Assembly: GCF_002837055.1 (NCBI RefSeq) | Contig: NZ_PDKP01000006.1 | Coordinates: forward strand, 1-40,569 | Reading direction: 5' to 3' | Origin: Lactobacillus apis | GTDB taxonomy: Bacteria > Bacillota > Bacilli > Lactobacillales > Lactobacillaceae | DNA: 40,569 nt | Part shown: piece after piece, positions 7,900 through 17,301 of the stretch | Layout: each line of letters starts with the position of its first letter | Numbering within the stretch: the first letter of the stretch is position 1 | The notes under the pieces: generated by a model | Databases searched by the model: none | What the model was told of the DNA's origin: nothing | What the model saw: only the letters and a program-made list of their open reading frames with translations | Made by a program: the position numbers and the translations under genes

Positions 7900-9632
<1,733 letters not shown>

Positions 9633-11102: not shown

Positions 11103-11339
11103 ATGTCAAATTCAAAAAAATATAGCTTAGACATTGACAACGAGAAGCAAACCATTCAAGGCATTTTTATACCCGACAAGACTATGTTCCAGCAAATTAG
11201 AGGAGTAGTTCAAGCTACACATTTAGATGGCTGGGAACCATCTTCTGATGATATTGAGAAATTGAAGGCTAATGCAATGAATCCTGACCCGAAAGAGCTA
11301 GCACGAATCAAAGCTATCTGGGAACAGAGGAGTAAGTAG
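11103..11339 (+). CDS. Small hypothetical protein, 78 aa
   Basis: Start ATG at 11103 with TAGGAG about 10 bp upstream. The protein is soluble and charged, with no signal peptide or membrane segment. The first 25 residues look like a beta hairpin (YSLDIDNEKQ, TIQGIFIPD). The rest is predicted mostly helical, ending in a basic helix (ELARIKAIWEQRSK). I do not recognise the family. Size and layout recall antitoxins or small regulators, but no toxin partner is adjacent. It is the only plus-strand gene between 6030 and 12651 and ends before a bidirectional terminator shared with the rgg/peptide unit. Its good ribosome-binding site and tight terminator support it being real. Confidence 0.7.
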   Translation: MSNSKKYSLDIDNEKQTIQGIFIPDKTMFQQIRGVVQATHLDGWEPSSDDIEKLKANAMNPDPKELARIKAIWEQRSK

Positions 11340-11401
11340 AAACTCGTCAACTTAGATTGAAGTCTAAAAATAAATCTGACTTCAAAAACAAATAAAAACA
11401 A

Positions 11402-11443
11402 AAAGAGCTAGTCAAGCATGAAACTTGAGCTAGCTCTTTTTTA
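11402..11443. terminator. Bidirectional terminator between the 78-aa gene and the rgg/peptide unit
   Basis: A stem of about 15 bp, interrupted by one bulged base (AAAGAGCTAG-TCAAG with CTTGAGCTAGCTCTTT), has T-runs on both strands. It ends the plus-strand 78-aa gene and the minus-strand peptide transcript. Confidence 0.85.
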
Positions 11444-11482: not shown

Positions 11483-11530
11483 TTAATCTGTAACAATAAT
11501 AATGACAGGTTTAAATAATGCTAATGACAT
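11483..11530 (-). CDS. Candidate Rgg-associated short signalling peptide, 15 aa
   Basis: The ORF reads MSLALFKPVIIIVTD and stops at TAA (11485-11483). AGGAG (11542-11538) lies 7 bp before the ATG, an ideal ribosome-binding site. A promoter-like pair (TTGTAA, 11605-11600, and TATTAT or TATAAT, 11583-11575) and a palindrome stand upstream, and a strong terminator follows at 11402. So this looks like a complete transcription unit of about 130-170 nt. It lies 100 bp downstream of the Rgg regulator on the same strand, as comS follows comR in streptococci. The peptide is short, has one Lys, and a run of Val/Ile, the composition of short hydrophobic pheromones read by Rgg proteins. No homologue is known to me. 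A type I toxin or leader peptide is the main alternative. Confidence 0.55.
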   Translation of the reverse strand: MSLALFKPVIIIVTD

Positions 11531-11577
11531 TTTTCTTCTCCTATATAAATCAATATTAACCAAACTTTTCATTAATT

Positions 11578-11605
11578 ATAATAACCCCTATTGCACTGTT
11601 TACAA
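11578..11605 (-). promoter_or_regulatory. Putative promoter of the 15-aa peptide ORF
   Basis: TTGTAA (11605-11600), 16 bp, TATTAT (11583-11578). A TATAAT in the alternative register sits 3 bp further on (19-bp spacing). The long or imperfect spacing would suit an activator-dependent promoter. Confidence 0.5.
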
Positions 11606-11610
11606 GGTGA

Positions 11611-11626
11611 TTTTCATATTCGAAAA
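11611..11626. promoter_or_regulatory. Candidate Rgg operator in front of the peptide promoter
   Basis: On the minus strand it reads TTTTCGAATATGAAAA, an inverted repeat of TTTTC/GAAAA around GAATAT. It begins 3 bp after the rgg stop codon and ends 5 bp before the -35 box of the peptide promoter. It matches the 12552-12567 site at 12 of 16 positions. Confidence 0.45.
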
Positions 11627-11629
11627 ATA

Positions 11630-12460
11630 TTACTTTATTAACCTATCAACAGTTACCTCATAGCCAGAATTGATTAGTACTTTCTTTATTTGATCGGCCT
11701 CCTCTTGATTATCATTAATTACGTCTTCGTAGTACTTTCCTAACATTTTAGTAAATGCCAATTCTATAGTATTAGGCAACTGCTTTAAAAAGTTTAATGG
11801 CTCTATACATAAACTACTTTTATTGTCTTGTATGCATAAGTCAATATAGTTAATCACCAATACGCTTAGTGCCACTAGAACCTTTTTCTCAATATTAGAA
11901 ACATTTTGATAGCGCCTAATAATACTTTTCACTAAAAAAGTAGCTTCATCTATTGTATACAGTTCCATTATATTACTTAATAAAACAATCCTTAGGTATC
12001 CATTATCATCAATGTCTTTTTGAAATAGTACTTGCTTAATTTCTTTCTTTTCTGCACGTGTTAGTTTTTTAAGTGAGTCATCATTATGTGTATTTGAAAT
12101 AACCTTTGCCTGTAAAATAAGTGATTCTGTTAAACTGGTTTGAGGCTCTATTTGCATTAATTGATCAGTAATATTTACTATTTCATCATCATTATCCTCA
12201 TTTGCAGCCTTTACAAGTTGATTTCTCAAATAATTAATTTTATTGTCATTAGAATTGCCATTTTCTGTTTCAGAAAAAAACTCCTGAAAACTAACCCCAT
12301 GTTTTTCAAGAATTTGGATCAACTCTTCTGCTCCGATATCATGAAAGCCACGTTCAACCTTTGAATAAAACGAAACAGAAATTACATCAGCAGCCATCTC
12401 CTTTTGGGTTAAACCTAAATCATGACGTAACTTTTTTAATTTGCTCCCAATACGATTCAT
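11630..12460 (-). CDS. Rgg/GadR/MutR-family transcriptional regulator
   Basis: 276 aa from the ATG at 12460 (AAAGGG 9 bp upstream); an ATG three codons earlier abuts that site and is unlikely. Residues about 3-60 are a Cro/C1-type helix-turn-helix (IGSKLKKLR, LTQKEMA, SFYSKVERG). The remainder is an all-helical repeat domain like the TPR-type peptide-binding domain of Rgg and ComR proteins, which bind imported short peptides and then activate nearby promoters. Length agrees with the family (about 280-300). A 15-codon hydrophobic ORF follows in the same direction. A palindrome related to the one in front of that ORF lies about 90 bp upstream of this gene. No transporter for peptide import or export is adjacent. 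Confidence 0.9.
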   Translation of the reverse strand: MNRIGSKLKKLRHDLGLTQKEMAADVISVSFYSKVERGFHDIGAEELIQILEKHGVSFQEFFSETENGNSNDNKINYLRNQLVKAANEDNDDEIVNITDQLMQIEPQTSLTESLILQAKVISNTHNDDSLKKLTRAEKKEIKQVLFQKDIDDNGYLRIVLLSNIMELYTIDEATFLVKSIIRRYQNVSNIEKKVLVALSVLVINYIDLCIQDNKSSLCIEPLNFLKQLPNTIELAFTKMLGKYYEDVINDNQEEADQIKKVLINSGYEVTVDRLIK

Positions 12461-12552
12461 AATTATCATCCCTTTTTATTCCATATAAAATATTATGGTC
12501 ACTAATCAGAAAAACATTCAAAAATATTATTTGTTTTTAACAAATTGATCCT

Positions 12553-14085: not shown

Positions 14086-15678
14086 TTAACTTTCTGTATT
14101 TTTAACTATATGAATTTCACGGTCGAATAACTGCTTCATTTGTTCATTAAAGTTATGAGCTATAAAGATTACCGTTGCAGAGGTTGCAGTTACCTCACGC
14201 AAAATTTCCATCGTAGCTTGTTGATCAATCGCACTAGTTCCCTCATCAATTAGAATCAATTCACTGTGATGAACTAATGCACGTACTAAAACAATTTTTT
14301 GCCTTTGTCCGCCAGAAATATTTAACTTATTCAAATCGATTTGCTGATCCAGTCCTTGGTCAAACTTAGCAATATCTCCATTAAGCTGAACTTTTTCTAC
14401 AAGCGAAGGTAAAGCACTTTTTAGTTTATCAGCAAACATCGTCATATTGTCAGCGATACTTGCTGGAAAGAGAACAGGATCTTGAGGGATATAACCAATT
14501 TTCTCCATATCAGGATTAATTGGCACGCCGTTTTTATTCTTGAAAACAATTTTTCCCGTAGTCGGCTTAAGCTGTTCTAGAATAAGTTTAAATAAAGTTG
14601 ATTTACCTGCACCTGAATCGCCAGTTAATAGTATTTTTTCACCTGCTTTAATATCAATATCAGGGAATTTTAGACTCTCACCATTTGGAAATTGTAGGCT
14701 AAGGTCACGAACACTCAGCTCCGCAGGTGCTGAGACTTGTTCTAGTTTAGGCTGTTCAACACTTTTAGTTTCCTCAGCAATTTTTTTATTTAAAGATTGG
14801 GCACCCTTCATCTGGCCGTATGAATTAACGATTTCTTCAACGCCCATTCTTAGATAATATTGACAGTTTCCAACACCGATAATAACACCAAAAGCAACTA
14901 GTTTTTGCTGAAATAAGTAGCCAGCTAATAAAAATAAGATTGTTGAAAAGCAAACTGAAATTAACCCATTAACAATAGACAGCAGTTGCATGACCCCATT
15001 TTGTTTAACATTTGCATCCTCCAAGTCTTTGGCTGCCTTATCTGTTATCGCAAATAATTTTTCACCGGCAAAATAGCGTTGTATTTCTTCTAAGCCACTA
15101 AGCCACTTGTCTAAGCAATCCAAATACTTTTGATTACTTTCAGAAATGTGAGTTATTGCCTGCTGTAAGGGTTTTTCAAGCAATTTAGGCACAGCTAACG
15201 AAATAATCACCATCAAAGTGACCGCTAAAAGTAAACTCCAGTGTAATGAAATTAATAACGCAACAACAGACACGATAATTGCTACACCACCGAGCAAATT
15301 GAAAAAGGGTTCTAAATAATTTTCTTGGCTTTGAACTAAGTCATTAGTTAATCCATTCTGGACCTGCGCTACAGGGTGCTCTTTTTGATCTTTATAAAAA
15401 TGGTCAATTGTTTTTTGACGAATAGCAGCTTTATATTGTTCCTCTTGTTTAGATTGAAGGTAACGTAGCAGTCCTTGCAATAAATAATCGATCAGGATGA
15501 ATACAAAACTAGCAAGAACCATAACCATGAAAGTTCTAAAATTACCTTGCTGAATTGCTGTAGTTTCAATGATTACAATTAATGAATTAACAATCATAAG
15601 TGCATGAAAGCTAATTAGCACTACCATTATCACTACAAAGCGTAATGGGTTTTGCTTAAAAAAACCTTTAATAGTCAT
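14086..15678 (-). CDS. ABC exporter half-transporter (second subunit of a pair)
   Basis: 530 aa. About six transmembrane helices fill residues 1-290, followed by an ATPase domain with Walker A GDSGAGKST, signature SGGQRQK and Walker B LILIDEGTSAID with the catalytic Glu intact; the switch His is in IFIAHNF. The start is the ATG at 15678 with AAGGAGG upstream, inside the tail of the preceding gene; only 2 bp separate the stop of that gene from this start. The two products are similar over their whole length and both ATP sites look active, so they probably form a heterodimeric exporter. Substrate unknown: drugs, lipids or peptides are all possible. A bidirectional terminator ends the operon. 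Confidence 0.9.
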   Translation of the reverse strand: MTIKGFFKQNPLRFVVIMVVLISFHALMIVNSLIVIIETTAIQQGNFRTFMVMVLASFVFILIDYLLQGLLRYLQSKQEEQYKAAIRQKTIDHFYKDQKEHPVAQVQNGLTNDLVQSQENYLEPFFNLLGGVAIIVSVVALLISLHWSLLLAVTLMVIISLAVPKLLEKPLQQAITHISESNQKYLDCLDKWLSGLEEIQRYFAGEKLFAITDKAAKDLEDANVKQNGVMQLLSIVNGLISVCFSTILFLLAGYLFQQKLVAFGVIIGVGNCQYYLRMGVEEIVNSYGQMKGAQSLNKKIAEETKSVEQPKLEQVSAPAELSVRDLSLQFPNGESLKFPDIDIKAGEKILLTGDSGAGKSTLFKLILEQLKPTTGKIVFKNKNGVPINPDMEKIGYIPQDPVLFPASIADNMTMFADKLKSALPSLVEKVQLNGDIAKFDQGLDQQIDLNKLNISGGQRQKIVLVRALVHHSELILIDEGTSAIDQQATMEILREVTATSATVIFIAHNFNEQMKQLFDREIHIVKNTES

Positions 15679-15680
15679 TT

Positions 15681-17270
15681 CTACTTGACCTCCTTTTTCT
15701 TTGCTTTTAGGCAGATTTGATAATCAAATTTTTCCATTAAATCAGGACTAAAATTATGTGCAATTAGCAAGACCGTTTTATCTGTTTGCAGCAGTTCACT
15801 AATGATTTTATTAGTTGTCTTGCTATCAACTGCACTTGTTGCCTCATCCAATAAAAGAAATGGTTTGTCATGTATTTCAGCCCTTGCTAAAACAACTTTC
15901 TGTCTTTGCCCCCCAGATAAGTTTCCTTGATCTAAATCAACATTAGTGTCAATTTGTTGTGGAAAGCTTGCTATGTCTGAAGCTAGCTGTACGTTTTGAA
16001 CTGCCCCACTTAATCTGGAACTTAGTTTTTGGTTAAACATCGTAATATTATTAGCAACCGTATCCGGGAAAAGCGTAGCGTCTTGAGCCACATAACCTAA
16101 TTCAGCTTGCTTAGGTAGTAGTTTGTTACCAGCTTGATCAATAAAATAGATCTCTCCGTTTTGGGGCTCAATTTTACCCAATAGAACCTTGAAAAGTGTT
16201 GACTTTCCAGTGCCAGAATCACCTGTTAGTAGAACTTTATCGCCTTGATTAATAGAGAAATCGGGATAAGTGATACTTTCACCATTTTGATATTGAACCT
16301 CTAGGTTCCGACATTTCAAACCATACACTGCAGCCTTAGGCTTTCTTTCAGGTAGCGGCTGAATGAGTTTAGTAACATCAGCACGTAATTCCTTTGTTGA
16401 ACGAATTTGGGTAATTGCACTAATGATTTCCCATAAGCCATTAAAAATAGTTGAGGCAAAACTGCTAGCAATGGCCCAGTCACCCAGAGATATTATATGT
16501 CTGAAAAATAGTAGACCAGCCCAGAGACCTGTTCCCACTTGACCGATTGAGTTGCCCACGCCATTAATTGCAATTGCAATAGACTTCATTTTATTACTAT
16601 TTACATTGGCATCTGTAAGTTTCTGGTTATCTTGACCAAGCGCTTTGGCTAAACGGCCACCAGCACCATAACGTCGTAATTCTCCTAGACCAGAAAACCA
16701 GTTCTCAATTGTATTTAAAAATTGCGCATTCTTCTGAGCTGCTTTAGCAGTTGAACTGGACAATTTTTTGGTCATGATTTGAGGTAAGCAAAGAACAATA
16801 ATCGTTACTACGGTCACAATCAAAATTAATGACCAATGCAATGTTAATAGTGTTCCTATTGCCATAATGATGCTTAATAAATTAATCCAGATTTTTATCC
16901 ATGGTGTCGCATAATCGTCGGACAAAACTTTGAGATTATTTCCCAATTGATTCTGCATATCTGCAACCTTAGTTGGTTCGGCGGCATAATAGTGTTTCAT
17001 TATTTTGGCGCGAATTTCGTGCAAATATTCTTGAATCTGCTTGTTAAACAAAAATGTTCCTAGTGGTAGTAGAAGAATAGTAAAAATTGAAATGATAAGT
17101 TCTAAAACTATCCAAAAAGCAAACCCGCTCCAGTTTCCATTACTAAGATCATTAGTTATGTATTTGAAAAAATATGTTGTTGCAGTACCACTTAATGCAT
17201 AAGCCAAGAAAACTAATAAAATTAAAATTGTTCTTGGTATGCTAGTCTTTAATAATTGCTTTAGTGTCAA
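15681..17270 (-). CDS. ABC exporter half-transporter (first subunit of a pair)
   Basis: 529 aa from a TTG at 17270, which has AAGGAGG 10 bp upstream. A TTG three codons earlier (17279) almost touches that ribosome-binding site. The chosen start also aligns MTLKQLL with MTIKGFF of the partner. There are about six N-terminal transmembrane helices. The ATPase domain carries Walker A GDSGTGKST, signature LSGGQRQK and Walker B FLLLDEATSAVD. It is translationally linked to the second subunit. The promoter (17302-17330) is preceded by two 10-bp direct repeats exactly 21 bp apart, which suggests control by a response regulator not encoded here. The transported substrate is not evident. Confidence 0.9.
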   Translation of the reverse strand: MTLKQLLKTSIPRTILILLVFLAYALSGTATTYFFKYITNDLSNGNWSGFAFWIVLELIISIFTILLLPLGTFLFNKQIQEYLHEIRAKIMKHYYAAEPTKVADMQNQLGNNLKVLSDDYATPWIKIWINLLSIIMAIGTLLTLHWSLILIVTVVTIIVLCLPQIMTKKLSSSTAKAAQKNAQFLNTIENWFSGLGELRRYGAGGRLAKALGQDNQKLTDANVNSNKMKSIAIAINGVGNSIGQVGTGLWAGLLFFRHIISLGDWAIASSFASTIFNGLWEIISAITQIRSTKELRADVTKLIQPLPERKPKAAVYGLKCRNLEVQYQNGESITYPDFSINQGDKVLLTGDSGTGKSTLFKVLLGKIEPQNGEIYFIDQAGNKLLPKQAELGYVAQDATLFPDTVANNITMFNQKLSSRLSGAVQNVQLASDIASFPQQIDTNVDLDQGNLSGGQRQKVVLARAEIHDKPFLLLDEATSAVDSKTTNKIISELLQTDKTVLLIAHNFSPDLMEKFDYQICLKAKKKEVK

Positions 17271-17301
17271 TGGTCTCAAGCCTCCTTAATTCATATTTCT
17301 T

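Follow-up and report, generated by a model that had tools for sequence, protein, structure and literature searches.

The pro-peptides of SHP pheromones count about 20 or more residues and combine an N-terminal leader with a C-terminal mature part. In Streptococcus pyogenes, the active SHP is DI[I/L]IIVGG and the SHP3 open reading frame (ORF) measures 69 bp (PMC3150281). In the ComRS system of Streptococcus suis, the DNA-binding domains of the receptors are identical and the C-terminal half varies with the peptide, as addressed by swap experiments (PMC4072589). The LCPs are mostly peptides of 8-10 amino acids, for which a divergent placement is preferred when they are called; they have been reported in Lactobacillaceae and tested in Limosilactobacillus reuteri (PMC10518010). 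Finally, the Rgg144/939-Shp systems of Streptococcus pneumoniae respond to mannose, and their authors reported no directly catabolic gene in the regulons (PMC5913232). A locus comparable with these systems occurs in Lactobacillus apis, within the 40,569-nucleotide stretch of DNA that was analysed as a whole, hereafter the window (RefSeq assembly GCF_002837055.1, contig NZ_PDKP01000006.1, positions 1 to 40,569). Judged by sequence comparison, the product of a 15-codon ORF of this window is probably a short pheromone and the cognate ligand for the Rgg-family regulator encoded just upstream, the two forming an autoinducing pair with manA as its candidate remote target. The elements of this locus, all on the minus strand, are as follows.

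11483..11530, minus strand: peptide gene MSLALFKPVIIIVTD, candidate pheromone, 15 codons (ATG 11530-11528, TAA 11485-11483)
11538..11542, minus strand: Shine-Dalgarno (SD) sequence AGGAG, 7 nt ahead of the ATG
11611..11626, minus strand: candidate Rgg box TTTTCGAATATGAAAA, a 16-bp near-palindrome 5 nt upstream of a TTGTAA hexamer
11575..11605, minus strand: promoter-like -35/-10 elements, by consensus match only
11400..11441, minus strand: terminator-like hairpin of the peptide transcript, by folding
11630..12469, minus strand: Rgg-family regulator gene, with the DNA-binding domain at about residues 1-66, followed by an all-helical Rgg_C domain

An earlier note on this DNA had singled out a hydrophobic ORF with AGGAG at 7 bp, and this frame was recovered at 11530-11483, separated from the rgg stop by 99 nt. 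An SD-preceded hydrophobic ORF of 12-18 codons arose in 1.1% of 2000 shuffles of this part of the window, and a gene for 15 residues would probably be overlooked by standard gene finders. The upstream palindrome of the note corresponds to the near-palindrome TTTTCGAATATGAAAA at 11626-11611. Its promoter-like pair was confirmed in so far as hexamers are present, starting 5-8 nt after the near-palindrome (TTGTAA-16-TATTAT, 11605-11578, and TAAACA-16-TATAAT, 11602-11575); however, the match is modest on its own, since a scan of both strands of the region yielded five pairs, compared with 2.1 +/- 1.5 in shuffles. Similarly, the strong terminator ascribed to the peptide gene was retrieved as a fold, the hairpin at 11441-11400 being followed by a U-rich stretch and reaching -23.3 kcal/mol (z -5.4; 0 of 200 shuffles equally stable), but a consensus terminator scan of the peptide region reported none. 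The preceding gene on the same strand was correctly assigned to the Rgg family. Indeed, its product combines an N-terminal helix-turn-helix (HTH) domain with a C-terminal Rgg_C/TPR-like domain, as do Rgg/RRNPP receptors, and matched HTH_3 and Rgg_C above the Pfam gathering cut-offs; a match to NCBIfam RGG_Cterm (TIGR01716) fell below the cut-off (33.7 versus 36.9 bits). The nearest solved chains in a single-sequence search were a MutR-family regulator and PrgX, the best match in the PDB being of the MutR/Rgg type (E 1.4e-5), and the profile of this Rgg matched solved Rgg-type regulators and PrgX across most of their length. The predicted model displays an all-helical C-terminal domain (mean predicted local distance difference test (pLDDT) score 80; predicted template modelling (pTM) score 0.58) and a low-confidence interdomain link at residues 68-71.

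A first line of evidence for the pair consists of its conservation. The Rgg protein of the window was searched against 75 genomes of the genus, designated here by G numbers. Complete rgg orthologues were retrieved from 11 of them, including the window's own, the ten others being 48-59% identical to the Rgg of the window; a twelfth rgg-positive genome, G037, contained a 56-residue piece at a contig end. As expected of an Rgg/RRNPP receptor, all 11 complete loci carry an adjacent short peptide gene, namely an SD-preceded ORF of 14-17 codons located 53-99 nt past the rgg stop. Besides the peptide of the window, these ORFs encode MDLLKTVVIILPDP, MDLLRDLIVVVLRSNKF, MDLLRNVIIIITDL, MDLVRGLIIIVADE, MNLLRGLIIIMPDP (two loci), MDLLRNVIIILPEP (two loci), MDFLRRVIIIIAED, and MDLLRDVIVVMPQR. 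Start codon, SD sequence, and a similar hydrophobic frame thus persist wherever a complete rgg is kept; the loss of the frame, which the earlier note had named as refuting its reading, did not occur. An ORF of this description arose in 0.35-1.75% of 2000 shuffles of each orthologous locus, the peptides being already known when the criterion was chosen. Nine 14-codon copies, two of which are identical genes, were compared by codon, the 15-codon copy of the window and the 17-codon copy of G032 being excluded for their length. The pooled proportion of synonymous differences (pS) was 0.60 and that of nonsynonymous differences (pN) 0.26, indicating purifying selection; the second codon position differed in 0.12 and the third in 0.52 of the comparisons. 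Further, a scan of 21 paralogous Rgg loci, 19 of them distinct and two duplicates, did not reveal the peptide motif of this Rgg group; in three of the 19, rgg is followed on its own strand by a short ORF with an ATG start and an SD sequence. The conservation of the ORF, the ratio of pS to pN, and the motif-free paralogous loci together indicate that the peptide gene is real and tied to this Rgg group.

A scan of named genomes with the Rgg protein retrieved only two paralogues of 33-34% identity, in L. corticis and L. kitasatonis. A sample of 397 genomes of the family, searched at E<=1e-40 with only six candidates scored in the richer genomes, yielded G000 and a paralogue in G073 alone; as the ten other known orthologues had been undrawn or missed, this result was taken as uninformative. 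A DNA pattern of the peptide, which does not cover the divergent peptide of the window, gave 18 matches over the 75 genomes, 12 at rgg loci and six elsewhere. Those elsewhere were taken as chance matches: the five inspected had no clear SD sequence just upstream, as judged by eye, and lay in open frames that counted 26-52 codons in four cases and 5 codons in the fifth, to which the sixth match (contig C1 of G029) is identical in its letters; the match in G006 lies about 1.4 kb from a weak 29-residue HTH-like match to Rgg (E 4e-4). Among the paralogous loci, L024 and L025 contain an Rgg of 33% identity, behind which, 79 nt past the rgg stop, lie a box of related sequence (TTTTCAAATTTGATAA) and the short ORF MVIVPEPYGLIPEIKLYK, possibly a second pheromone class. 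Locus L028 contains an 8-residue ORF (MFIPWYPL) with GGAGG, 103 nt past the stop of a paralogous rgg and on the same strand, the length of which resembles that of LCPs.

A second line of evidence is the box at the peptide promoter. The sequence TTTTC(A/G)AATATGAAAA was present upstream of the peptide gene in 10 of the 11 loci, and TTTTCAAATATGAAAA, with at most one mismatch, ends 64-80 nt ahead of the peptide start in as many; an equal match occurred in two of 22,000 promoters after mononucleotide shuffling. When 15 genomes other than that of the window were searched for exact copies, 12 sites were obtained, five in peptide promoters and seven before manA, and none outside these two kinds of promoter, comX not having been searched as such; the reversed box, used as a control, gave no exact site in the same genomes. 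In G065, the boxes of the peptide gene and manA share the same variant, ending in GACAA. The position of the box immediately upstream of a -35-like element would fit an activator. Two observations on the box weigh against the proposed pair, namely that the peptide promoter of G062 contains no recognisable copy (at best 6 mismatches) and that sites with one or two mismatches are about as numerous as in the reversed control. Such sites elsewhere were therefore rejected as background, so that only near-exact sites are meaningful.

A third line of evidence is that receptor and peptide vary together. The gene adjoining rgg, which encodes an HD-domain protein (Pfam HD), shows 99% identity when G029 is compared with either G030 or G024, whereas the receptor C-terminal domains of the same pairs are only 49% identical, and the trees of the HD gene and Rgg are in conflict. 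Between G029 and G030, nucleotide identity amounts to 0.96-1.00 up to about nt 228 of rgg (codon 76), apart from the first, edge bin (0.50), and falls to about 0.6 for the remainder of rgg and across the peptide gene; the interdomain link of the model (residues 68-71) lies close to this break. In the comparison of G018 with G024, the stretch from -12 to 132 of rgg comprises seven bins, six of which are at 0.88-0.96, and most later rgg bins are at 0.5-0.75, with 0.88 for the bin at nt 828, which holds the box; the peptide gene follows at 0.54-0.62 with still lower flanking spacers, and 15 of the 18 bins from nt 1092 onward reach at least 0.92. Compared with the window, the DNA-binding domains of the group are 63-84% identical and the C-terminal domains 42-52%. 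As identity drops past the DNA-binding domain in G029/G030 and recovers beyond the peptide in G018/G024, the sensing domain and the peptide form a single block of difference, against a DNA-binding part and a box that remain alike. Together with the conflict between HD gene and receptor, this joint variation points to a cognate pair, as does the conserved box, in line with the pairing proposed in the earlier note. Some features fit an exchange of one block less well: G029 and G030 remain unlike downstream, where other genes are found, the 300 nt preceding rgg match at only 0.58-1.00 between G018 and G024, and neither pair alone displays both block edges sharply. A similar block separates the window from contig C23 of G064, with one break near 12520, the other in the interval 10920-10820, and the whole of rgg inside, the flank being 96.7% identical over 7.1 kb. 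G064 was considered as a sister strain of the window and rejected, as the contig that holds its manA shares 96% identity with G065 and only 73% with the genome of the window. Its glmU gene is 94% identical to that of the window; it is probably a mixed metagenome bin, with contigs C1 and C23 near the genome of the window and C20 near G065. For this reason, the argument for a swap is based on G029, G030, G024, and G018.

One receptor may face several signals. In G032, a single rgg is followed by four tandem units of box, SD sequence, and peptide gene, encoding MDLLRDLIVVVLRSNKF, MSFLRTVAIIITD, MDLLRDMVVVFPA, and MDFLRTLVVIVTEP, all different, with 1, 0, 2, and 1 mismatches in the successive boxes and an arginine deiminase gene thereafter (L034, about 8000-8910 with rgg turned to the plus strand). 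This array raises the question of signal eavesdropping or chatter.

When placed beside the described systems, the locus resembles streptococcal ComR/ComS (XIP) in that a regulator gene precedes a short unannotated peptide gene behind a conserved box, the same box occurs at a remote gene, with a putative role in the regulation of manA here, and the receptor C-terminus varies with the peptide (PMC4072589). It differs from ComRS in that the peptides count 13-17 amino acids, against 21 for ComS of S. suis (PMC4072589), none of the 14 peptides contains Trp, and manA takes the place of comX as the remote candidate target. With Rgg2/Rgg3-SHP2/SHP3 it shares an Rgg-family receptor and an aliphatic run after a polar residue, the peptides having the core (N/D/G/R)(V/L)(I/V)(I/V)(I/V), which is rich in Ile and Val when compared by eye with SHP; the likeness of their C-terminal part to DI[I/L]IIVGG is suggestive (PMC3150281). 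Unlike SHP, they are too short for an SHP-type leader (14-17 amino acids beside rgg, 13-17 when the G032 array is included), their C-termini are often acidic or proline and never GG, and the receptors are distant in sequence. The resemblance to LCP/RopB is that a TPR-type regulator gene adjoins an ORF with an SD sequence for a very short hydrophobic peptide, but the peptides are longer than LCPs, contain charged residues, and are encoded downstream on the same strand (PMC10518010). Hence, judged by their sequences, the peptides seem to fit neither SHP, being short, nor ComS, having no Trp, nor a typical LCP, being longer and encoded on the same strand.

The remote candidate target, manA (mannose-6-phosphate isomerase), was identified by a match to NCBIfam TIGR00218 above the cut-off and by Pfam phosphomannose isomerase domains. 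The comparison comprised 70 of 77 matches in 68 genomes, leaving out G001, G010, G061, and the second matches in G027, G031, G036, and G060. A box with at most one mismatch is located 53-54 nt before the manA start in all 12 rgg-positive genomes and in two of the 58 other loci; with a completeness of 54% and 66%, the assemblies of the latter two genomes may simply lack rgg. The co-occurrence of rgg and manA box (Fisher test, 8.6e-12) is uncorrected for kinship. Several points reduce its weight. G037 was counted as rgg-positive on a contig-end fragment, and the rgg and manA contigs of G064 probably stem from different organisms; without these two, the box precedes manA in 10 of 10 rgg-positive genomes. 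Further, a manA tree with 30 rows places all 12 rgg-positive genomes, together with the two other box-bearing ones, in one weakly rooted group of 14, so that the co-occurrence represents roughly one evolutionary event and the Fisher value overstates it. A separate point against the pair is that no neighbouring target common to the genomes was seen: an ABC transporter, an FAD/FMN-binding flavoprotein, the arginine deiminase gene, or others follow the pair, and a shared target adjoining it was rejected on account of these differences. The case for manA as a target is carried more by the identity of the 16-mer and its similar distance, by eye, from a -35-like element than by the count. Alternatively, the manA box may serve another regulator, Rgg controlling its own peptide gene only, which would be compatible with a pheromone role of the peptide. 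The confinement of the co-occurrence to one group and the presence of the box in G062 at manA and not at the peptide promoter speak for this alternative. It is nevertheless somewhat unlikely, given that the manA site is the same 16-mer in a similar position and that all 12 exact sites in 15 genomes lie at peptide or manA promoters. Regulation of manA by the Rgg-peptide pair would recall the tie of Rgg144/939-Shp to mannose, here through a candidate box, with the difference that this box stands directly before manA (PMC5913232).

The autoinducing pair may operate as follows. The peptide, either whole or as its C-terminal 8-10 residues, would leave the cell, re-enter it, and bind to the C-terminal domain of Rgg, thereby switching the regulator. 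The complex would then bind the box beside the -35 element and activate both the peptide's own gene, providing positive feedback, and manA, so that mannose metabolism would be coupled to signalling. Pherotypes would arise when receptor domain and peptide are exchanged together, the DNA-binding domain and box staying similar. Instead, a real and Rgg-controlled peptide may act inside the cell only, for instance as a co-factor of Rgg, since 13-17 amino acids leave little room for a secretion leader and no obvious peptide exporter lies directly beside the peptide gene among the ORFs of the window, the nearest ABC genes being located beyond the HD gene (14086-17279). This is improbable, as joint variation of receptor domain and peptide is typical of cell-cell signals, and a leaderless 8-residue peptide of Streptococcus salivarius is secreted and re-imported (PMC10518010). 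A leader peptide or by-product of a small regulatory RNA from this promoter, as might be suggested by a predicted transcript that is short and ends in a terminator-like hairpin of its own, is very improbable in view of the codon-level purifying selection, the SD sequence in 11 of 11 loci, and the fact that the ORF of the window is followed by the hairpin and by no close gene on the same strand. Lastly, a membrane toxin of a type I toxin-antitoxin pair, which the short and hydrophobic nature of the peptide might recall, is most improbable, as type I toxins are generally longer than 13-17 amino acids and the peptide follows this rgg in all 11 loci and varies jointly with the receptor domain.

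Candidates for export and processing of the proposed pheromone were present in the genome of the window (1.59 Mb, 87% complete). SHP systems use PptAB and Eep for these functions; here, an EcsB-type gene, EcsB being of the PptB family, may contribute to export, and an M50 peptidase gene to processing, comparable to Eep; M50 peptidases also occur in 14 of 14 control genomes and hence provide no specific evidence. The two ABC transporter-like genes beyond the HD gene (14086-17279, minus strand), one of which was subjected to Pfam analysis, have counterparts in five of the ten relatives, with two or three such genes, and none occur in the other five within the stretch fetched. Convergent to the peptide gene, a 78-amino-acid ORF lies at 11103-11339 of the plus strand; it matched nothing in Pfam, NCBIfam, or PHROGs at the thresholds applied, and no ORF of at least 60 amino acids was listed at its position in the G064 contig.

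Among the open-access matches listed, no paper on this pair or on a link between Rgg and manA was found, and the pair may already figure in the supplementary lists of PMC10518010 or PMC10075063. More tentatively, it could represent a new class of Lactobacillus pheromones that is near-leaderless, exchanges signal and receptor domain as a single module beneath a similar DNA-binding domain and box, uses up to four different tandem signals per receptor, and directly sets the expression of manA, gating the entry of mannose carbon. The 14-codon peptides are recognisable through comparison of loci. The box at manA would directly link an Rgg system to mannose catabolism in a genus other than that of pneumococcus. 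If the autoinducing pair is real, it would provide Lactobacillus with a compact and testable form of peptide signalling in which pherotypes occur naturally and both a candidate operator box and a definite metabolic target are at hand.
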